DNA of 64,000 nucleotides from Rhodoflexus caldus. Lineage in GTDB: Bacteria; Bacteroidota; Bacteroidia; Cytophagales; Thermoflexibacteraceae. Every line of letters begins with the position of its first letter. Position 1 is the first letter of the stretch. The stretch is from assembly GCF_021206925.1 (NCBI RefSeq), contig NZ_JAJPRF010000018.1:1-64000 (forward strand). The letters run 5' to 3'. Positions 4,734 to 13,622 of this stretch are shown in pieces. A program made the translations under genes and the position numbers. Below the pieces are notes generated by a model. It was given only the letters and a program-made list of their open reading frames with translations, did no database searches and had not been told where the DNA came from.

Positions 4734-5411
4734 TCAGTTGGAAGTATTGCCCGAAAGTGTAAAATTATTCAGCGTGCCTATGTTGCAACTTGCCAAGTCG
4801 TTAAGTGTATTGAACGCCGCATTATTGCCGCCCGCTACGCCCTGATTGAAGCGATAATAAGCCACTAAGCCCGTTTGCGGCAAATTGATTTCACTGTTCA
4901 GGTTAGCGTTAATTTCGGCAGATGTGCGTACCGTATTCCAAATGCGCACTTCGTCAATTTCACCCCTGAAATATTCGTTCGGATAAAGCGGGTCGTTTGA
5001 CCAACTGATGGTCAGCGGCGCGTTGCTTAAAGCGGTATTGAAGCCGTTGGCAGTCGCGCCGATGGAAACACCGTTCACATAGCATGTGGCAGAACTACCG
5101 CTTTCCACTACCGCGATGTGATACCATGTACCCTGTACAAAAGCAAAGGGGCGCACCTGATACGAAATGTCGTTCCAAATGCCAATACCGGAAAGGTTGT
5201 CTTCTACATGCACGCTGAATCGGGTGGCAGCAAATCCGTTGCGGTAGCCCAGCACACAGGGATTTTGCCCGTTAGAACCCGGTGTCCAATTAGGGCGCAT
5301 CCAGAATTCAATCGTGCCGTCCACCAAATCAAACGCGGGCGAGTAAGGGAAGGTAACAAAGTTGTTCGTGCCGTTGAAATTGAGCGCATTTGGCGGGGTG
5401 TGTCCATGCAA
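4734..5411 (-). CDS. LamG-domain fragment of the giant surface protein
   Basis: A 225-residue open piece, in the same frame as the 255-4733 fragment and separated from it only by the TGA at 4736-4734. It holds one complete LamG/pentraxin-like domain: NALNFNGTNNFV strand, IEFWMRPN strand, a DEVRIWN motif and the closing GLVAYYRFNQG strand. Its last residues read SGNTSN before the stop; in comparable LamG proteins this position continues with Trp-Val-Ala, so TGG to TGA is a likely explanation. The apparent TTG start is an artefact of entry from the upstream frame, which overlaps it by 83 bases. Confidence 0.55.
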   Translation of the reverse strand: MHGHTPPNALNFNGTNNFVTFPYSPAFDLVDGTIEFWMRPNWTPGSNGQNPCVLGYRNGFAATRFSVHVEDNLSGIGIWNDISYQVRPFAFVQGTWYHIAVVESGSSATCYVNGVSIGATANGFNTALSNAPLTISWSNDPLYPNEYFRGEIDEVRIWNTVRTSAEINANLNSEINLPQTGLVAYYRFNQGVAGGNNAAFNTLNDLASCNIGTLNNFTLSGNTSN

Positions 5412-6921
5412 TTTTCAGGCTTTGCCCCACCCACGCAGGGCTGCCCGTAACCATGCCCGTCCATTCTGCTGTGCTCAGTTTCTCTTTGGCTATTTCTTTG
5501 CCGTCAGGGGCGGTCAGGCGGAAGTTCACACCGTTGAGCGCATTGCCCGTTTGGTCGTTGAAACGAATCACAAGTTTGCGCTTGTATTCCAGCAAGGTTT
5601 CCTCAATCTGCCAGTCGGGGGAAATTTTAGCAACCACTTTCACGTTTTTGCTTTCCAACCCTTCCTTAGCAAAGGAAATTTCCTTGTGTGTGCGTTCAGA
5701 AGTGTTTTCTATGGTAAACCTGCCCTGCTTGTCGGTAGTAGCCGATTTGTTTTCGCAGCTTACCTTCACGCCTTCAATAGGTTCATCGTTCTGATTTACC
5801 ACCACGCCGCGCAGCGTAATCAAAGGGTTGCGAGTCAATTGTGCATCTACTACATAAGTTGTCTGAAACTGCGCGAATATGCCCGCTTTGGTTTCCATAG
5901 ACCAGCCATCGCGGAAAAATACAATTTTCCCCAATTTGCGGTCGGCAGGTAATTCTTTAACGGCATATTCGCCGTTGCCGTCGGTGGTCAGGCTTTTATG
6001 AATTGTAGTGTTGTCGGCTTGGTAAATATCAACCGTTACATTGGCTAAGGCTTCGTTGTTATTATCGGTTACTTTGCCTGCAAGGCTGCTGTTGCGTGTC
6101 AGCATCGTCAGGTCGGCTTGGGTACTTTCTTGTCCTGCCAAAAGCACTACGGCACTATGCGCCATTGCATAACCGTTTTTCTGCGCCACTACTACGTACT
6201 TATCCGTTTCCAGCCCTTCTTTGTTGATGGTAATGCCGCTGATTTCACAGTTGCCGTTTGCATCGGTATTCACTTCCCTGCTTACAGGATTTGTCTTGTT
6301 TCCGTACAAAAGCTCATCTATATCTTTCTGCGTATAAATGGCCACTTTCACGCCTGCAATGGCATCACCTGAGTTCCTGTCGGTAATTTTCCCTTTGATG
6401 CTTGCCGTGAGCGGTGTGAGTTCTATATCGCTTTTGGCAGTAATTTCAGGACGCACATTAACGGTGCGCGAGGTAAAAGGTTTGTACTGCGTTTCGTTGA
6501 TTTTCAATACGTAGTCGGCAGCATCTACGTCAAAAAAAAATTTACCTGCCTCATCGGTCATGCCCGAAGCCAATGCGCGGCTTTGGTCGCGGCTGCTGAA
6601 TGCCTCAACAACGACACGCTGTATGCCGCGTCGGGTCTGCGCATCGCTAACAATGCCTTCTATTTTGCCCGGTCGCGGCGCTAAGTAATACGAATAGCCG
6701 CTAATCACGAAAGCACCTGCGGGTACTTGCACATTGATTTGCTCTGCTTTGCCGTCAAAATAGTCTTTGGCCTTTGCTGTTACGCTGATAACCTGTCCAT
6801 CTTCTATATCAATAGAAAATTTGCCTGACCCGTCGGTCGTAACTTCCACTGTTTTGGGATTTTGTTCGGTGTAAGGCACTTGTACCTGCCGCGTTTTCTG
6901 CACAGTTGTAGGCGGGGTCAT
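5329..6921 (-). CDS. Carboxypeptidase-regulatory-like repeat fragment of the giant surface protein
   Basis: A 530-residue open piece made of about five tandem beta-sandwich repeats of the carboxypeptidase-D regulatory type. The recurring signs are GKITD-x-N/R-G-x-AIAGV and TTD-x-x-GEYAVKEL. The true reading probably leaves this frame near 5411, where the continuation into the LamG fragment lies in another frame; the last 27 or so residues here look out of frame (cysteine- and glutamine-rich). At the upstream end the frame carries two TAA codons just before GTATACTACTACATG, so it is entered by a frameshift from the 6809-7891 piece. Such repeats act as rigid stalks in outer-membrane and secreted Bacteroidota proteins. 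Confidence 0.55.
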   Translation of the reverse strand: MTPPTTVQKTRQVQVPYTEQNPKTVEVTTDGSGKFSIDIEDGQVISVTAKAKDYFDGKAEQINVQVPAGAFVISGYSYYLAPRPGKIEGIVSDAQTRRGIQRVVVEAFSSRDQSRALASGMTDEAGKFFFDVDAADYVLKINETQYKPFTSRTVNVRPEITAKSDIELTPLTASIKGKITDRNSGDAIAGVKVAIYTQKDIDELLYGNKTNPVSREVNTDANGNCEISGITINKEGLETDKYVVVAQKNGYAMAHSAVVLLAGQESTQADLTMLTRNSSLAGKVTDNNNEALANVTVDIYQADNTTIHKSLTTDGNGEYAVKELPADRKLGKIVFFRDGWSMETKAGIFAQFQTTYVVDAQLTRNPLITLRGVVVNQNDEPIEGVKVSCENKSATTDKQGRFTIENTSERTHKEISFAKEGLESKNVKVVAKISPDWQIEETLLEYKRKLVIRFNDQTGNALNGVNFRLTAPDGKEIAKEKLSTAEWTGMVTGSPAWVGQSLKIAWTHPAKCAQFQRHEQLCYLPLLARV

Positions 6922-7891
6922 GTAGTAGTATACTTAACCCTGTTAAGCGCGTGGCTGTAACCACCCGTCCTTCGCGACGCAGACGTTCTGCCACCGTAAC
7001 TGCTTCGCCGAGGCTTACTCTGACACTTTCATTGATGCGCCTGCCCGGTACTGTTTCGGCGTAGGTTTCCGTTACGTTGCGGTACTTTACTTCCGATGTA
7101 GCATAGGCAATGGTTACCGTTGCATCAGGAATGAGTCTTGACTTGGTAACAAGGTCTTTTACTGTACCTGTAAAACGAATTTTGCCTTGCTCCAAGGGCT
7201 TTTCGGCAAGTAATTCTTCGTCTTTTTTCTGTTTGTCGGCAGTGGTGAGCGGCGCTACGCTGAACAGGAATGGCACGGCGCGTCCTTCGGGTTCACCGAT
7301 GGGTTTGTCCTCTTCATCTAAGGCCTGTACATTCCACACATACCTGCCTTCGGAGCGGGGTAATTCGTAGGCTGCCCCCCATATCCACTGTGTTTGGTTG
7401 ATAATTATTTCGTCCACATAGGGCACATTGGTACGGAAAGCAATTTCGGGGGATTGGTCGCCGATGACCTCAAAAACCTGCAAACGGTATTTCACAACGC
7501 CACGCGGTTTGGGCGTTACACCGTTCCAGCGCAAAACAGGGCGCGTATTGGCGCGTTCTTCCGAACGGTCGGGCGGATAAATCAGTACAGGCGGCTGAAA
7601 GGCAACTAAATTGGCATTGCGGCAAACGGGCGCGCCAATGAGCGTATTTTGGGTGCGGATGTCCACCAAATCCACGCATATTTCGTAGTTGTCTTCGGGA
7701 ATAAAACCGCTGCGGAATCGGTCTAAGAGCGTCCGATTAGGTACGCGATAGGCTGCGGGGTTATTTTGCGGCAGTACACTTGCCAAATCAAACACCTGAC
7801 TGCCGCGGGTGATTTCAATTGGTTGCTGCTGTTCGGCAATGGTTTCGGCTAACAACGTGCCGTCGCCACCGTAGAGTTTAACACTCAACAC
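6809..7891 (-). CDS. N-terminal fragment of the giant surface protein
   Basis: A 360-residue open piece. It contains a beta-domain followed by an Fn3-like segment (PPVLIYPPD ... RPVLRWNG ... YRLQVFEV ... GRYVWNVQA), matching the N-terminal part of TANFOR-like Bacteroidota surface proteins. The final 40 or so residues after GLSI are frame-shifted nonsense, since the other frame of the same bases (from 6921) continues the regulatory-like repeats. The real N-terminus, with its signal peptide, lies upstream at 8095 in a different frame. The ATG at 7891 is an internal codon and not a natural start. Confidence 0.55.
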   Translation of the reverse strand: MLSVKLYGGDGTLLAETIAEQQQPIEITRGSQVFDLASVLPQNNPAAYRVPNRTLLDRFRSGFIPEDNYEICVDLVDIRTQNTLIGAPVCRNANLVAFQPPVLIYPPDRSEERANTRPVLRWNGVTPKPRGVVKYRLQVFEVIGDQSPEIAFRTNVPYVDEIIINQTQWIWGAAYELPRSEGRYVWNVQALDEEDKPIGEPEGRAVPFLFSVAPLTTADKQKKDEELLAEKPLEQGKIRFTGTVKDLVTKSRLIPDATVTIAYATSEVKYRNVTETYAETVPGRRINESVRVSLGEAVTVAERLRREGRVVTATRLTGLSILLHDPAYNCAENAAGTSALHRTKSQNSGSYDRRVRQIFY

Positions 7892-8599: not shown

Positions 8600-10300
8600 C
8601 TATTTGAAAGTATAGGTCAATGAACTGCGCAGCAGCGTTTCCGTAAAGCGAACCCCGGGCTGTTCGGCACCGAAGCGAAACAAGTTGATATGCCCCCCTG
8701 TATCCAACATCAGTTTTTTCATGATGCTATACCGATAACCCAATTGCAGCATCAATTGGCGTGACGGTTCGGCAAAATCCACCGCATTGGACATATAGGT
8801 CAGTTTCAGTGAGCCGTTCATTTTTTTGTCAAAAAATTTGTAAGCAGTTCCGGCCGTCAGATTACGCATCTGCATGAAGTTTACTGCCGTGCGGTTATCA
8901 AACTGCATCGCCGTCAGGTCAAAGGTGAGCGGCTTATTGTTCCACGTCAGCACGTAGCCCGCCATCCATGTAACTGAATTGTTGCTGTTTTGCGCGCCCG
9001 TAAACAGGTTGAAGTCGTCAAAAGCATCGCGGGAAAAGGTCAAATTGAATACATGCGTGTAGCGTGTAGCAGGAATCGTGTAAATAGGTGATACATTCAG
9101 TGACCGATTCACATTTTCCACCCGCAGCGTATCGTTTCGCACCGTGTTGCGAAAGCCAAAGTTGTTGAAGCCTGCCGTAAGTGTCAGCTTTTCGGTTGCC
9201 TGCCAATTGGCGTTAATCATCCCCGTCAGTTGGTAAGCTGTTGCCCCTTTCAGCCCTGATACGTTGTTGATGCGCTGCCCGATAGCCCCTGAAAGGGTAA
9301 TTTTACCGCTTTTCAGGTTCATGCGCGGCTCTATGCGGTAATTTGCTTGGTCGGGTTGCAAAAAAGGATAGCCCAACGTACGGAAACCTTCGGTTACATA
9401 ATCGCCATATAGCCGTATTGACCATACTTTTCCGTTGCGCCCCACGGTTCCGCGAAAGGCTGTCCCCAAGCGACCGGTGAGGTTGAAAGGCATCAGCCCT
9501 GCGAACATATTATCGTCGGCAAGACTTTCGGCAAGTGCATTTTCAGTAAAAGCAGAGCGAGCAACTTCCCCTTCCAAATAGTAAGCCGAGCCAATTTTAT
9601 ACTTGCCGCCTACCGAAAATACCAGATTTTCTTGCGGTGCAACCTGCGTCAGTAATTCAGGCACAGAACCGACAATATCCGACGAACGCATGAAACCCAC
9701 GTGTAAATGAGTGGCATCATCGGCACCGTAGCCAAACTTGCCTGAATACACGCGCCGCGTGTAAGCCCCTATAACACCCAGCACAGGATTCTGAGCCACA
9801 GGCAGTTGCGCATTGCCGCCATGAAACGCAACCCGCCACTTTTTTGCCAACAGCATATCTGCACCCAAACCGAATATGCGAATATCGCCCGAGGTAAAGT
9901 GCATGAATTTAGGTACATAAGTCCCCAGCAATGCTTTACCGAATTTTAACTGTGGCGCAAAACCAACCGAATTTACGGGGTTGGTAATGAACTCAAACAG
10001 ATTTTGGTCAAGAGGAATCGGGGTGTTGATGTTGCGCTGATTATTGGCCAGCATCATGGAAAAAGGTATCTGAATACCTTTGATGCCAATACTGCCCGAA
10101 CCCATGAACCGATAAAGTTCATCAGGACGGCGGGGGCGAATGTCTGCACCCACAGAGCGCATACGATACCATTCGCCCTGCACCGATACCTGCCCTGAAT
10201 AAGTAAAAAAGGGAGATGAGGATGTTGGCTGCTGTCCAAAAAGCCTGTTATTGCCAACTAACAGAAGACATACCAAAAATATTCGTAGAGCTGCTGCCAT
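8600..10300 (-). CDS. Outer-membrane beta-barrel protein of unknown function
   Basis: A 566-residue protein with a Sec signal peptide (LRIFLVCLLLVG core, cleavage near FGQQ). The body consists of alternating polar and aromatic strands, and the last strand ends in SSLTYTFK, as expected for an outer-membrane barrel. Phrases such as LSGAIGQRINNVSG and LTLTAGFNNFGFRN fit paired barrel strands. I cannot assign a named family. It is the first gene of a probable operon with the lipoprotein and the broken T9SS cargo gene, which suggests a cell-surface assembly. Alternatives include a channel or an assembly factor for the large secreted protein. Confidence 0.7.
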   Translation of the reverse strand: MAAALRIFLVCLLLVGNNRLFGQQPTSSSPFFTYSGQVSVQGEWYRMRSVGADIRPRRPDELYRFMGSGSIGIKGIQIPFSMMLANNQRNINTPIPLDQNLFEFITNPVNSVGFAPQLKFGKALLGTYVPKFMHFTSGDIRIFGLGADMLLAKKWRVAFHGGNAQLPVAQNPVLGVIGAYTRRVYSGKFGYGADDATHLHVGFMRSSDIVGSVPELLTQVAPQENLVFSVGGKYKIGSAYYLEGEVARSAFTENALAESLADDNMFAGLMPFNLTGRLGTAFRGTVGRNGKVWSIRLYGDYVTEGFRTLGYPFLQPDQANYRIEPRMNLKSGKITLSGAIGQRINNVSGLKGATAYQLTGMINANWQATEKLTLTAGFNNFGFRNTVRNDTLRVENVNRSLNVSPIYTIPATRYTHVFNLTFSRDAFDDFNLFTGAQNSNNSVTWMAGYVLTWNNKPLTFDLTAMQFDNRTAVNFMQMRNLTAGTAYKFFDKKMNGSLKLTYMSNAVDFAEPSRQLMLQLGYRYSIMKKLMLDTGGHINLFRFGAEQPGVRFTETLLRSSLTYTFK

Positions 10301-10491: not shown

Positions 10492-12015
10492 CTACAATAC
10501 CTCTACAATCAACTCTCTAACTTCCTTCTCGGCACAGCCCAAGCCGATGAGCACCACTTCGCGGTTTTGATGCAAATACTTCTGATGATAACCCTTCGCT
10601 TTGATTTGGGCAAGGGCTTCCGCCGCGCTGCCGTTTACCTTGAACTCAATCACAAAGAACGCATCGGGTGTATATACCACTACGTCAATCCTGCCTTTGG
10701 CGGTTTGCACTTCGGTCTGCGTGTAAGTTTGCATCAGCGAAAACGCCATGAAGAAAATAGCATGGTAGAACGCCTCATAGCGTTCCATGAATTGTTCATA
10801 GGGAATGTTGGCTAGCAGCGTGTTCAAAGCGTCTTGGAACTGTTCGTAGTTCCGCCGTTGCAGATATTGCAACATGTTGAAAATCAACGGGCTGATTTGC
10901 TTTTTGCCGCTAAAATCGCTTAACATGAATTGCAACAACGCGTGCCGTACTTCCCGATTGGGGTAAGAAAGCGTGTAAATGTCCTCTATCTTGTTTTGAA
11001 TCGTCAGGTAGCCTGTCTGGAACAGCAACGCCATTTCATCTACGTTTTCCACCTGAAAATTGCCTAATTGGATTTCGGAAAGTTGTACTTCTTCCAAGTT
11101 GTAGGTAAACTTTTCCCGCAGCTTTTTAACCAGAAAAGTCGGTGTACCCGTGGCAAACCAGAAGTTACCGAACTGCTGTTGCGACATGAGGTTCAAAACC
11201 GAAAATGGATTGTACACCGTCTCCTTGCCGCCCCACAAATAGCCATTGTACCACGTGCGGATTTTTTCCAGCATCTCATGGCGACTTACGCCTTCGTTTT
11301 GTGCCAAAAGGTCAATTTCACGGTCAAAATATTGTTCCAGTTCAGCCTGTGTATAGCCCAGCAATGCAGCATATTGCGGGTGAATGGTAATATCGTGCAG
11401 ATTGTTCAAATCCGAAAAAATAGACACCTTGCTGAACCGCGAAACACCCGTGAGGAAAAAAAAGCGGATGTACGGGTCTAAGTCTTTGATGACTGAATAG
11501 AAATTTTTCAGCATGTCCCTGTTTACTGCTGCCTTTTCGGGTTGTTCCAAAAAGTCAATAATCGGTTTGTCGTATTCGTCAATCAGGATGACGACCTGCC
11601 CCTGTTGCTCGTACAATTGCAGGATAAACGAACGCATCCATTCGCCGGGTTGGTCGCCCGTAACGGTAATTTGAAAAGCATCTGCCAGCCTTTGCAGTTC
11701 CTGCCGCAAGCGCAGTTTCAGGTCGTCGGTTTGGTAGGTAAGTTGCGCAAAACTCAAATGAATCACAGGGCTTTTGCGCTGCCAGTCTATCTTGTCTTCA
11801 ATCCAAAGCCCTTTGAAAAGCGCCTGATTGCCCAGAAATATCTCTTTCATCGTGCTGAGCAGCAGCGACTTACCAAAGCGGCGCGGGCGGGAAAGGAAGT
11901 AGTACTTGCCTTGGTCTATCAAACGGAAAATGTGCGCGGTTTTGTCGATGTACACATAGCCACCTCGGCGCAACTCGCCGAAATCCTGAATGCCAATGGG
12001 GTATTTCTGAATCAT
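10492..12015 (-). CDS. AAA-ATPase-like protein with PD-(D/E)XK nuclease-like C-terminus, copy 1
   Basis: A 507-residue member of the AAA-ATPase-like/DUF1703 family, which is common in Bacteroidota and of unknown function. From the ATG at 12015: a conserved N-terminal segment (MIQKYPIG), the Walker A variant RRFGKS at residues 45-50, a Walker B-like strand VVILIDEYD near residue 155, and a C-terminal nuclease-like core with GRID followed by IEFK, the D...E-x-K arrangement. The ATG overlaps the stop of copy 2 as ATGA, so the two are probably translationally coupled. A longer reading from 12057 would only add 14 residues inside copy 2. Residues about 92-150 are unlike copy 2, while other blocks are identical at DNA level. 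No DNA target or partner is evident. Confidence 0.85.
   Translation of the reverse strand: MIQKYPIGIQDFGELRRGGYVYIDKTAHIFRLIDQGKYYFLSRPRRFGKSLLLSTMKEIFLGNQALFKGLWIEDKIDWQRKSPVIHLSFAQLTYQTDDLKLRLRQELQRLADAFQITVTGDQPGEWMRSFILQLYEQQGQVVILIDEYDKPIIDFLEQPEKAAVNRDMLKNFYSVIKDLDPYIRFFFLTGVSRFSKVSIFSDLNNLHDITIHPQYAALLGYTQAELEQYFDREIDLLAQNEGVSRHEMLEKIRTWYNGYLWGGKETVYNPFSVLNLMSQQQFGNFWFATGTPTFLVKKLREKFTYNLEEVQLSEIQLGNFQVENVDEMALLFQTGYLTIQNKIEDIYTLSYPNREVRHALLQFMLSDFSGKKQISPLIFNMLQYLQRRNYEQFQDALNTLLANIPYEQFMERYEAFYHAIFFMAFSLMQTYTQTEVQTAKGRIDVVVYTPDAFFVIEFKVNGSAAEALAQIKAKGYHQKYLHQNREVVLIGLGCAEKEVRELIVEVL
11246..11445. repeat. 200-bp perfect repeat, copy in ATPase gene 1
   Basis: Every base matches 12766-12965 in the paralogous gene, in direct orientation and 1,520 bp apart. 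The flanking bases differ at once (11245 against 12765, and 11446 against 12966). Confidence 0.95.
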
Positions 12016-13541
12016 ACGCTTTCGGTGATTAGTTCCTTGACTTCCTTTTCGGCACAACCCAAGCCGATGAGCACCACTTCGCGGTTTTGGTGCAAATATT
12101 TTTGATGATATCCCTTTGCTTTGATTTGTGCCAGCGCTTCCGCCGCGCTGCCGTTTACTTTGAACTCAATCACAAAAAATGCATCGGGCGTGTGCACCAC
12201 CGCGTCAATCCTGCCTTTGGCGGTTTGCACTTCGGTTTGTGTGTAGGTCTGCATCAACGAAAAAGCCATGAAGAAAATGGCATGGTAGAACGCCTCATAG
12301 CGTTCCATGAACTGTTCGTAGGGAATGTTGGCCAGCAGTGTGTTGAGCGCATCCTGAAACTGTTCGTAGTTGCGGGCTTTCAGGTAGCGCACCATGTTGC
12401 GCACAATGGGATGCACCGATTCCTGACCGCTGAAGTCCCTAAGCATGAATTGCAGCAACGAATCTTTAACTTCCTGATTGGGATAGCGCAAAATGAACGT
12501 TCCCATGTCGCGCTCTTTGATGGTCAGGTAGCCCGTTTGGAACAGCAGTGCCGTTTCGCTGATGTTTTCAATCAACAGGTTGGATAGAATTCCCTCGTCG
12601 GCACTGACTTCTTCCAAGTTGTAGGTAAACTTTTCGCGCAGTTTTTTGACCAAAAACGTGGGCGTACCCGTGGCAAACCAGAAGTTACCGAACTGCTGTT
12701 GCGACATGAGGTTCAAAACCGAAAACGGATTATACACGGTTTCCTTGCCGCCCCAGAGGTAGCCGTTGTACCACGTGCGGATTTTTTCCAGCATCTCATG
12801 GCGACTTACGCCTTCGTTTTGTGCCAAAAGGTCAATTTCACGGTCAAAATATTGTTCCAGTTCAGCCTGTGTATAGCCCAGCAATGCAGCATATTGCGGG
12901 TGAATGGTAATATCGTGCAGATTGTTCAAATCCGAAAAAATAGACACCTTGCTGAACCGCGAAACGCCCGTGAGGAAGAAAAAGCGAATATAAGGGTCTA
13001 AGTCTTTGATGACCGAATAAAATGATTTAAGAATATCGCGGTTTTCCAGCGCAATCGGCAGTTCATCCTGACTCAAGAAATCAATAATCGGTTTGTCGTA
13101 TTCATCTATTAAAATAGCGACCTGTCCCTCTTTTTGATAGACTTTTTCAATCAGTTCGGCGTGCTTTTCTTTGAGCGTAGGGGCTTGCAGTGTAATTCCG
13201 AAGTTACCTGCAAGTTTGACCAATTGGTCGCTGAGCGAATCGGTCAGGCTGCGGTCGCGGGTATCTACTTGTGCAAAACTCAAATGAATCACAGGGCTTT
13301 TGCGCTGCCAATCTATCTTGTCTTCAATCCAAAGCCCTTTGAACAGTTGTTGATTGCCCAGAAATATCTCTTTCATTGTGCTGAGCATCAGCGACTTGCC
13401 GAACCGACGCGGGCGGGAAAGGAAGTAGTACTTGCCTTGGTCTATCAAACGGAAAATGTGCGCGGTTTTGTCGATGTACACATAGCCACCTCGGCGCAAC
13501 TCGCCGAAATCCTGAATGCCGATGGGGTATTTCTGAATCAT
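12012..13541 (-). CDS. AAA-ATPase-like protein with PD-(D/E)XK nuclease-like C-terminus, copy 2
   Basis: A 509-residue paralogue of the next gene downstream, with the same layout: Walker A RRFGKS at residues 45-50, LIDEYDKPIIDF after the Walker B strand, and GRIDAVV...VIEFK in the C-terminal nuclease-like domain. It is the promoter-proximal copy. Its stop overlaps the start of copy 1 by ATGA. It shares a 200-bp perfectly identical block with copy 1 (12766-12965 against 11246-11445) and a block of about 113 bp at the 5' end, but differs strongly at residues about 92-155 and in the stretch following LEEV. Mosaic identity points to gene conversion. Proposed roles for this family (defence, mobile element, DNA repair) are unproven. 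Confidence 0.85.
   Translation of the reverse strand: MIQKYPIGIQDFGELRRGGYVYIDKTAHIFRLIDQGKYYFLSRPRRFGKSLMLSTMKEIFLGNQQLFKGLWIEDKIDWQRKSPVIHLSFAQVDTRDRSLTDSLSDQLVKLAGNFGITLQAPTLKEKHAELIEKVYQKEGQVAILIDEYDKPIIDFLSQDELPIALENRDILKSFYSVIKDLDPYIRFFFLTGVSRFSKVSIFSDLNNLHDITIHPQYAALLGYTQAELEQYFDREIDLLAQNEGVSRHEMLEKIRTWYNGYLWGGKETVYNPFSVLNLMSQQQFGNFWFATGTPTFLVKKLREKFTYNLEEVSADEGILSNLLIENISETALLFQTGYLTIKERDMGTFILRYPNQEVKDSLLQFMLRDFSGQESVHPIVRNMVRYLKARNYEQFQDALNTLLANIPYEQFMERYEAFYHAIFFMAFSLMQTYTQTEVQTAKGRIDAVVHTPDAFFVIEFKVNGSAAEALAQIKAKGYHQKYLHQNREVVLIGLGCAEKEVKELITESV
12766..12965. repeat. 200-bp perfect repeat, copy in ATPase gene 2
   Basis: Partner of 11246-11445. Surrounding coding sequence shows many synonymous and non-synonymous differences, so the identity is local to this block. 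Confidence 0.95.
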
Positions 13542-13622
13542 AGGGGAAAATTAGGCAAAAATGACCTTTTTTATGATTGCTTGACTTGCTGCTTTGGCAG
13601 ATATGCTTGTCTGTTCTATTAT

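Follow-up and report, generated by a model that had tools for sequence, protein, structure and literature searches.

Apparent segment exchange among dispersed DUF1703-type NTPase-nuclease genes of Rhodoflexus caldus

Main finding

The window (64,000 bp of R. caldus contig NZ_JAJPRF010000018.1) contains two overlapping genes, A and B, which are probably (at roughly 0.6) members of a dispersed, recombining gene family (DUF1703) that exchanges cassettes and encodes STAND-like NTPases ending in a PD-(D/E)XK nuclease domain. A and B belong to a set of four close paralogs, of which C and D are located elsewhere in the genome, and both A and B appear to be patchworks because scattered chromosomal paralogs swapped whole segments. 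The segment exchange, more than the local duplicate pair, is the part worth study.

Genes A and B and their surroundings

The features of the locus are summarized in Table 1. Both ORFs of the first-pass annotation are present and share ATGA at 12012-12015. For B, the family ATG at 12015 was taken as start, the listed 521-aa ORF opening at an upstream TTG. The two proteins are 82% identical (aa), and both Pfam domains scored above the curated cut-offs (PF09820, 208.4 bits for A and 212.2 bits for B, cut-off 26.1; PF08011, 65.4 and 64 bits, cut-off 25.5), which, with the motifs present, places A and B in DUF1703. The downstream neighbour, for which no Pfam match was found, is 62% identical to a protein of the relative G011 that directly follows a response regulator.

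Table 1. Features of the A/B locus, in window coordinates
Feature	Position	Strand	Basis
Copy A, DUF1703-type protein, 509 aa, PF09820 AAA-ATPase_like + PF08011 PDDEXK_9	12012..13541	(-)	ORF, Pfam
Copy B, paralog of A, 507 aa from family ATG	10492..12015	(-)	ORF, Pfam
ATGA overlap, A stop / B start, within TATGATTC	12012..12015	(-)	sequence
PD-(D/E)XK nuclease domain of A (PF08011)	12039..12299	(-)	Pfam
PD-(D/E)XK nuclease domain of B (PF08011)	10519..10779	(-)	Pfam
Leader of A, 21 bp; 19/21 bases match leader of paralog C	13542..13562	(-)	sequence comparison
Copy A, 200-bp block matching B 11246-11445 exactly	12766..12965	(-)	exact run
Copy B, 200-bp block matching A 12766-12965 exactly	11246..11445	(-)	exact run
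Copy A, 113-bp block matching B 11882-11994 exactly	13408..13520	(-)	exact run
Copy B, 113-bp block matching A 13408-13520 exactly	11882..11994	(-)	exact run
V1 segment of A, codons 84-193, with Walker B inside; class in common with paralog C	12963..13292	(-)	sequence comparison, model
V1 segment of B, unlike V1 of A, C and D	11443..11766	(-)	sequence comparison
V3/4 segment of A, codons 301-400; class common to G002 D-locus copy	12342..12641	(-)	sequence comparison
V3/4 segment of B; class common to paralog D	10822..11121	(-)	sequence comparison
Upstream neighbour, response regulator, PF00072	13623..14507	(-)	ORF, Pfam
Downstream neighbour, 566-aa protein, outer-membrane-like by eye	8600..10300	(-)	ORF

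The overlap had been read as the sign of a coupled system, in which A and B are made in fixed proportion and act together as a two-subunit hetero-oligomer. The ATGA overlap itself, the motifs kept in both copies, and the different V1 and V3/4 classes of A and B would suit such a system, which is nevertheless improbable: of 12 close tandem junctions (gap <300 bp) in 62 loci, no other overlaps, the rest having gaps of 14-293 bp, and C and D are solitary genes in the same genome (neighbours by Pfam: peroxiredoxin, DUF1415, ceramidase-like and M14 peptidase genes). Furthermore, no pair is present at the corresponding place in G011, where the genes that flank A/B (response regulator and relative of the 566-aa protein) are adjacent with a gap of 263 bases, nor in G003, where the locus is partly deleted. 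From these comparisons, the A/B pair looks like a local duplicate. The eight bases TATGATTC are also found where one G002 copy ends and where family genes begin; the junction may have formed at this 8-bp identity, by the joining of one copy's 3' end to the 5' end of a second copy, which would account for the ATGA overlap.

Conserved motifs and predicted fold

In an alignment of 14 sequences including A and B, Walker A (RPRRFGKS) and Walker B (DEYD) are invariant, as are the nuclease residues D446, K461 and Q472, and E459 is almost invariant; all four residues are retained in A and B, together with RPRRFGKS, LIDEYD and GRID...IEFK, in agreement with the earlier observation of intact Walker A, IDEYD and GRID...EFK in both copies. 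The A and B proteins had no match in NCBIfam, and none of the solved structures was a credible hit by sequence search (best E 0.21). In the structure model (mean pLDDT 85.8), residues 3-364 match the archaeal ATPases 2qen (Z 15.9) and 2fna (Z 15.1) by fold comparison, followed in the next rows by NLR, CED-4 and Avs3; Foldseek alone gave weak matches (TM-score to query <=0.30). Over residues of about 3-374, the predicted fold resembles the NBD-helical-winged-helix arrangement of STAND NTPases (archaeal ATPase/MNS type), which makes A and B candidate members of that clade, though likeness of fold does not prove it. A C-terminal sensor of superstructure repeats is typical of STAND NTPases, whereas A and B are short single chains that end in the nuclease domain, with no C-terminal repeat domain found by Pfam. 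V1 of A is placed by the model between strands two and four of the NTPase core, and V3/4 of A probably corresponds to the winged-helix-like region plus linker.

Mosaic structure of the four paralogs

The overall nucleotide identity of A and B is 79.6% (1521 aligned bases). The 200-bp and the approximately 113-bp identical blocks previously reported were both found to be exact, and the latter opens 21 bp inside the genes, behind one mismatch. Two stretches, residues 92-150 and the part after LEEV, had been called hardly alignable; their nucleotide identity is indeed low (47% for residues 92-150, 59% for residues 311-400), but both align.

The mosaic extends through all four paralogs: identity in codons 81-180 is 83-98% for A-C and 40-73% for A-B, in codons 201-300 it is 93-100% for A-D, 88-100% for A-B and 65-88% for A-C, and in codons 341-380 it is 93-100% for B-D. 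The mosaic conservation proposed from A and B is thus borne out, in that the nearest partner switches by block and the informative sites cluster beyond chance: the clustering of 127 phylogenetically informative sites was matched in 0 of 20,000 shuffles and, when restricted to third codon positions (69 sites), in 1 of 20,000. In AU tests, the V1, V2 and V4 blocks each reject the trees of the other blocks (p <= 2.3e-4), and the ends block rejects one of three rival trees. Permutations, AU tests and block-wise synonymous divergence (below) agree on gene conversion or recombination, as had been suspected.

At the level of sequence, these data establish that intragenic exchange among paralogs evidently keeps the framework alike (the N-terminus with Walker A and, in the genus, the nuclease C-terminus), and that the segments V1 (~84-190), V2 (~184-300) and V3/4 (~301-400) occur as classes in various combinations, some classes being common to different loci and to different species of the genus.

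Homogenised ends and shared classes in sister species

The C- and D-locus genes of G002 are 99% identical in codons 49-82, compared with 85-87% for orthologs. Paralogs within a species are more alike than orthologs in codons 49-82 and at the C-end in G002, and at the ends in G003, where these homogenised ends sit at contig edges; the C-end comparison across sister species excludes copy D. The N-end of G002 departs from this pattern, 2C-2D identity (81.6%) being lower than 2C-0C identity (89.4%).

Residues 301-402 of A differ at 3 of 102 positions from the G002 copy at another locus (D locus). In codons 301-400, the two genes are 86.7% identical (nt; pS 0.52, pN 0.03), and A is 62-66% identical to its own paralogs. 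The pS of 0.52 matches the mean of 0.54 for the ortholog pair L042/L092 of the same two species, as expected if the class descended vertically; sharing of classes between sister species may also have come about through horizontal transfer. Taken together, the gene ends look homogenised within species, and the middle-segment classes are common to different loci and species.

An assembler that joined near-identical repeats could produce a mosaic, and the identical blocks of 200-230 bp among paralogs, together with G003 contigs that terminate in the repeats and have ~141 bp identical at their ends, as expected from overlaps in an assembly graph, are what such an artefact would leave. Identical blocks in short-read assemblies could thus include mis-joins. 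Segments shared at 87-93% identity could not (A-C V1, 89%; B-D codons 301-400, 93%; A-G002 codons 301-400, 87%), since a mis-join would leave 100%, and block heterogeneity is seen in other genomes too; as a source of the mosaic, an assembly chimera is very improbable. A reservoir of silent cassettes, considered for the short family fragments in G002 and G003, was rejected: the fetched fragments lie at contig ends beside gene flanks, and are therefore best read as genes cut by assembly breaks.

Block heterogeneity in other genomes

The blocks of a pair differed in synonymous divergence (P<0.001) for 40 of the 111 within-genome pairs and for 0 of the 7 cross-species pairs, all of 70-99% aa identity; one genome group contributes 90 of the 111 paralog pairs, and three of the seven control pairs share members, so neither set consists of independent pairs. 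The adjacent G006 genes L057_7270 and L057_8860 are identical in codons 194-502 and differ in three codons within 1-80, with a pS of 0.77 in V1 (84-140). In G033, L126_2906 and L128_3011, 58% identical overall, have a pS of 0.11 in V1 codons 84-140 and of 0.42-0.57 in the other five blocks (0.25 across codons 88-180). Block profiles covered pairs of 65-98.5% identity and block counts pairs of 50-98.5%: in the G006 group (90 pairs), homogenisation is strongest at the N-end, and only 11 pairs have a V1 (84-140) that is over-divergent by >0.25; in G033 the C-end is without homogenisation. A model of exchange in V1 only is too narrow, since V2, V3/4 and the ends are also involved.

The tandem L057 copies, which are identical over most of their length and differ in V1, would also fit a role of V1 in subunit self-recognition, by which each paralog would assemble with copies of itself and selection would oppose recombination events that render V1 sequences alike. 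The NTPase-core face at the V1 position is used in assembly in AAA+ and NLR-like proteins, and the model places V1 there, between strands two and four. A and C are of the same V1 class, however, so insulation is not universal among the copies, and self-recognition of this kind is an unlikely explanation.

Selection on the variable blocks

The variable blocks had been regarded as fast-changing, and a test for positive selection in residues 92-150 had been proposed; neither rapid change nor positive selection was supported. The clearest same-class pairs are under purifying selection (pN/pS about 0.06-0.19), and further pairs of the same or a near class reach at most 0.44; for D against the G002 C-locus gene, the V1 ratio rests on a pS of 0.83, close to saturation. 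No pN/pS >1 was found in any window tested, the highest values being 0.57 (four paralogs) and 0.66 (G006 triple array) in 20-codon windows, 0.79 in the last 9 codons of a G006 group and 0.77 across codons 88-180 of a G033 pair; between classes, synonymous sites are close to saturation, which makes pN/pS a weak test for positive selection. With classes common to loci and species and with purifying selection within them, the variable blocks are not simply fast-changing.

Under neutral concerted evolution, conversion would homogenise similar stretches and stop at diverged ones, and the variable blocks would carry ancient divergence, neither selected for variety nor involved in recognition. This disputes only the functional half of our preferred explanation, so the odds of the two overlap, and we hold it to be a strong contender at slightly below even chances. 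In its favour, the blocks that diverge between these copies belong to the least conserved parts of the family as a whole (91-140, 211-250, 301-330 and 361-400 in 38 representatives), pN/pS is never above 1, and exchange occurs at many positions beyond V1. Against it, some pairs share V1 despite a divergent rest (G033 L126_2906/L128_3011; A/C, as against their V2 and V3/4), and classes are found at different loci in sister species, which argues for segments that were exchanged and not merely left behind.

Comparison with described systems

The simplest CifB/Cin forms combine an AAA-ATPase-like domain with PD-(D/E)XK, as do A and B, according to the available part of PMC12445526. The nuclease-region fold predicted for A/B matches CifB/Cin (7fiv, 7et0; Z 10-11, rows covering 308-509). 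CifB/Cin are characterised by two PD-(D/E)XK domains and an adjacent CifA-type partner; A and B have one Pfam nuclease match each and are free-standing paralogs, with no CifA-type gene seen among the Pfam-annotated neighbours of the pair, C and D. To our knowledge, Rpn nucleases are without an NTPase domain; the Rpn domain PF04754 is absent from A and B, for which Pfam gave only PF09820 and PF08011 at E <= 0.001. In the accessible text on Rpn nucleases (PMC10327210, PMC5350276), these resemble A and B in the PD-(D/E)XK domain, a conserved plus a variable part, gene duplicates and a suggested self-promoted recombination, and differ in that the variable part is C-terminal and clustering with defence genes is reported, which the neighbours sampled here do not show.

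The pair had been put forward as undescribed. The DUF1703 architecture was published by Knizewski et al. 2007 (PMC1913061), with the domain order, RPRRFGKS Walker A, DEYD Walker B and PD-(D/E)XK motifs as in A and B; in the portion available, the article predicts domains, and tandem pairs and segment exchange are not its subject. Expansions of DUF1703 in Cardinium cCpun and a midge Rickettsia were described by Siozios et al. 2019 (PMC6387759), who, in the sections available, found intragenic recombination among the paralogs with RDP4 and PHI, and the family in many bacteria with expansion in scattered lineages; Cardinium belongs to the Cytophagales, the same order as the relatives of the window. 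These expansions are like that of Rhodoflexus in family, many paralogs and intragenic recombination. Hence the family, its domains and the recombination of its paralogs in Cardinium and Rickettsia were already known, and what differs, as far as the text of PMC6387759 goes, is that no apparent homogenisation is reported there, whereas here within-species ends at orthologous loci look homogenised and segment classes are common to different species and loci.

Possible function

Each protein, alone or as a homo-oligomer, might act as an ATP-switched nuclease, in which the exchanged segments (NTPase core face; winged-helix/linker region) could set recognition or subunit assembly. The specificity switching suggested earlier is compatible with the block exchange, though the fit falls short of proof. 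A bolder reading, which we consider doubtful, is a templated-diversity system, in which NLR-like (STAND-fold) nucleases at fixed chromosomal loci would draw on a common pool of discrete, conserved recognition/assembly cassettes, one in the NTPase core with Walker B and one in the winged-helix/linker region, and recombination, perhaps nuclease-started, would re-deal the cassettes and keep the motor and nuclease ends alike. If cassettes set recognition or assembly, the family would be a bacterial parallel to receptor diversification through gene conversion. Homogenised ends and exchangeable classes point to V1 and codons 301-400 as targets for swaps, and natural proteins that differ almost only in V1 are available (L057_7270/L057_8860; B/D approximately).

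Defence context and mobile elements

The family might act against foreign or selfish DNA. A and B gave no significant match to PADLOC models (best E 0.0017), and the proposed association with defence neighbours was not confirmed: defence genes were not enriched by PADLOC among 110 neighbours of family genes compared with 110 controls (E <= 1e-10; neighbours, 13 models with one gene each; controls, 16 models, three of them hit by 2-4 genes). The neighbour sample was taken from 42 loci with 259 eligible genes, and the control sample from 16 stretches, hand-picked on contigs of the same genomes, with 132 eligible genes; ORF calls were crude. Similarly, no defence enrichment was seen in the most frequent 25 of 141 Pfam families near family genes.

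A close-relative pattern search gave no relatives in viral_contigs. Among 50,697 phage records, matches came from 34, each carrying the name Bacteriophage sp.; those listed (20 of the 34) are short faecal contigs without annotation. In these collections, the family is thus not chiefly phage-borne. Matches among the plasmid records numbered 62 of 72,556 (12 of the 62 listed). A Calditerrivibrio plasmid, from another phylum, carries five copies, and its sole pair of at least 50% identity has no V1 effect and differs at the ends.

Mosaic structure of the paralogs

The tandem genes A and B (see table) match PF09820 (AAA-ATPase_like) and PF08011 (PDDEXK_9) well over the Pfam cut-offs, and the catalytic motifs are intact in both when aligned; the NCBIfam search gave no match for either, and the PADLOC search only matches at E 0.0017 or worse. 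The DNA of A and B is 79.6% identical overall, 47% for residues 92-150 and 59% for residues 311-400. Both identical blocks reported in the first-pass annotation, one of 200 bp and one of 113 bp, are present; the shorter begins 21 bp inside the gene.

Coordinates of the tandem genes in the window
Gene	Position	Strand	Product
A	12012-13541	minus	509-aa ORF
B	10492-12015	minus	507 aa, counted from the family ATG

The genome of R. caldus (3.96 Mb, 40 contigs) contains two further close copies, C (contig C15; 86% amino-acid identity to A) and D (contig C3; 81%); the remaining family matches are at most 45% identical to A. A distant family member on contig C3 (L043:9676-11285) is broken into two frames, and its C-terminal part contains an in-frame TAG.

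The mosaic conservation noted for the pair holds and extends over all four genes, with the nearest partner switching by block. By windowed identity, A is nearest to C at codons 81-180 (83-98%) and to D (93-100%) and B (88-100%) at codons 201-300, and at codons 341-380 B and D are 93-100% identical with A and C apart. Of the 127 informative sites, 87 favour AC|BD, 23 AB|CD and 17 AD|BC; none of 20,000 shuffles clustered like sites as strongly, and for third positions only, one of 20,000 did. Maximum-likelihood trees of the variable blocks V1 (codons 84-190, approximately), V2 (184-300) and V4 (in 301-400) reject the other blocks' trees (AU test, p <=9.4e-5, 1.6e-8 and 2.3e-4, respectively); for the terminal framework (the ends), the V4 tree alone is rejected. 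A-D are best read as a recombining family of STAND-like nucleases, a function that we infer, with exchangeable, conserved segment classes (alternative versions of a segment); the initial observation is confirmed.

Predicted structure

In an AlphaFold2 model (pLDDT 85.8, 14-sequence alignment), residues 3-364 align to the archaeal ATPases 2qen (Z 15.9) and 2fna (Z 15.1), followed by NLR, CED-4 and Avs3 as fold matches; for the nuclease end, the matches are Wolbachia CidB (Z 11.0) and CinB (Z 10.1). Foldseek ranked ORC/Cdc6 and MalT at the top, and none of the matches listed had a query TM-score above 0.30. V1 is placed between strands 2 and 4 of the NTPase core, and codons 301-400 contain a helix-hairpin-helix stretch that may be winged-helix-like.

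Ends and segment classes in sister species

Among three genomes of the same genus (G001-G003), a family gene is found at the C locus (marked by genes for an AhpC/TSA-type peroxiredoxin and a DUF1415 protein) in G002 and G003, as in R. caldus, and at the D locus (marked by genes for a ceramidase-like protein and an M14 peptidase) in all three and R. caldus. The D-locus gene of G001 (L054:9411-10484) is a 357-aa frame with the N-terminal end joined to residues 293-508, residues 92-292, approximately, being absent. G002 also carries partial copies, comprising C-terminal ends, at two additional places on contig edges; the homologous stretches of R. caldus and G003 gave no match to A.

Within a species, the gene ends show mostly concerted evolution. 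At codons 49-82 the C- and D-locus genes of G002 are 99% identical, versus 85% and 87% to their R. caldus orthologs, and the three G002 C-terminal ends are 98-99% identical mutually and 75-78% to those of A, B, C (D being left out of this comparison) and G003. Codons 1-47 in G002 are contrary, the C- and D-locus genes (81.6%) being below the C-locus orthologs (89.4%). The G003 ends at the C and D loci are identical to each other, whereas its contigs at these loci are 90-94% identical to R. caldus at the same locus and the gene starts 86%; these G003 ends sit at contig edges, where they may be assembly-graph overlaps. The last 141 bases of L051 and L052 (G003, C and D loci) are gene starts with ATA instead of ATG and an altered Walker A stretch; since these are identical and at contig ends, they may be a single collapsed degenerate copy.

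The middle segments, unlike the ends, are not evolving in concert. V1 of the G002 C-locus gene is closest to D (71%) and unlike C (53%), and at codons 301-400 the identity of A with the D-locus gene of G002 is 86.7%, versus 62-66% with its own paralogs. Between A and this gene, 3 of 102 residues differ at 301-402, with synonymous and nonsynonymous divergence per site (pS, pN) of 0.52 and 0.03; as this pS resembles the mean of 0.54 for L042/L092, orthologs from these two species, the class probably predates their divergence, with transfer a conceivable alternative.

Segments of the same class are under purifying selection, with pN/pS of 0.08 for V1 of A and C and of 0.19, with pS near saturation, for V1 of D and the G002 C-locus gene, which corrects the initial description of fast-changing blocks. 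No window in the four paralogs exceeds a pN/pS of 0.57.

Family members in other genomes

A family match was obtained in 21 of 59 relatives. Of 111 within-genome pairs, 40 had unequal block-wise synonymous divergence at P<0.001 (G006, 35/100; R. caldus, 4/7; G027, 1/1; G007, 0/2; G005, 0/1), as against none of seven cross-species pairs; the 111 are not independent because 90 belong to a single G006 group. Among the clearest cases, genes 2 and 3 of a triple array in G006 are identical at codons 194-502 and differ by 3 codons in 1-80, with a V1 pS of 0.77. G033 (1.1 Mb, same order), a presumed Cardinium-type symbiont, carries many family copies. Two of them are 89% identical overall, with pS 0.50 at codons 84-140 and 0-0.23 elsewhere, and a pair 58% identical overall has codons 84-140 in common at pS 0.11; over codons 88-180 both contrasts shrink (pS 0.33 and 0.25). 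A V1-only model was rejected: in the large G006 group homogenisation is strongest at the N-terminal end, with V1 prominent in 11 of 90 pairs, and in G033 the C-terminal end is diverse. The V1 effect was absent in the single usable pair from Calditerrivibrio.

The family architecture was defined by Knizewski et al. 2007 (PMC1913061), and Cardinium cCpun is described with 25 paralogs of unknown function, with reticulation and RDP4-detected intragenic recombination and no apparent homogenisation; recombination is also reported for family members of midge Rickettsia (Siozios et al. 2019, PMC6387759). Rpn proteins (PMC10327210) offer an analogue, and a review tabulates PF09820 for RADAR, PARIS1 and Old-tin (PMC10952713). 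The open-licence family literature, as partly covered, yielded no description of homogenised ends at orthologous loci or of segment classes common to species and loci, although further work on recombination in this family may exist.

Junction, locus and neighbourhood

A and B overlap by ATGA; the mechanically called ORF of B begins at a TTG upstream of the family ATG, and 19 of the 21 bases in the leader of A agree with the leader of C. In G002, one copy, 3' of which no family gene was seen, ends in ...GTATGATTC, and family genes start with TATGATTC; recombination at this 8-bp identity could have created the junction. A survey of 62 loci (80 genes) gave 12 tandem junctions spaced by less than 300 bp, of which A/B is the sole overlap (other gaps, 14-293 bp). 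Within the loci sampled, therefore, stoichiometric coupling is not conserved, and the proposal of a coupled, fixed-ratio pair found no support.

Nor did the proposed defence role: 110 sampled neighbour genes matched 13 PADLOC models, one gene each, whereas 110 control genes matched 16 models, three of which were each hit by 2-4 genes (E <= 1e-10), and the best 25 of 141 Pfam families by frequency near family genes are ordinary cellular ones. On Parabacteroides plasmid NZ_OY725758.1, a family gene (L172:19992-21560) has ordinary metabolic genes around it and is separated by 4 bp from the M20-type hydrolase gene that follows, a tight fit like that of copies C and D.

The corresponding G011 genes are, in order, a histidine kinase, a response regulator and, after 263 bases without a family gene, a gene whose product is 62% identical to the window's 566-aa neighbour; in the window the pair thus sits between genes that adjoin elsewhere. 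Upstream of this kinase, L123:1239-2360 encodes a protein of 373 aa whose long tail consists of EAQNKAE repeats; it has an Alanine_zipper match and looks Rpn-like by eye, with no nuclease domain matched. In G003 the pair and the 566-aa gene are absent, as are most of the kinase and part of the regulator; in its syntenic stretch (contig C13, L124) pieces further downstream are lost too, and leftover patches match window 14999-14190, 8024-7895, 7447-6675 and 6414-6300. On R. caldus contig C2, L151:3658-10887 encodes a 2409-aa repeat-rich protein, the homologous stretches of whose flanking genes are about 90 bp apart in G002. Three overlapping ORFs in different frames at window 4734-7891 (minus strand) look like one frameshifted gene for a long surface protein.
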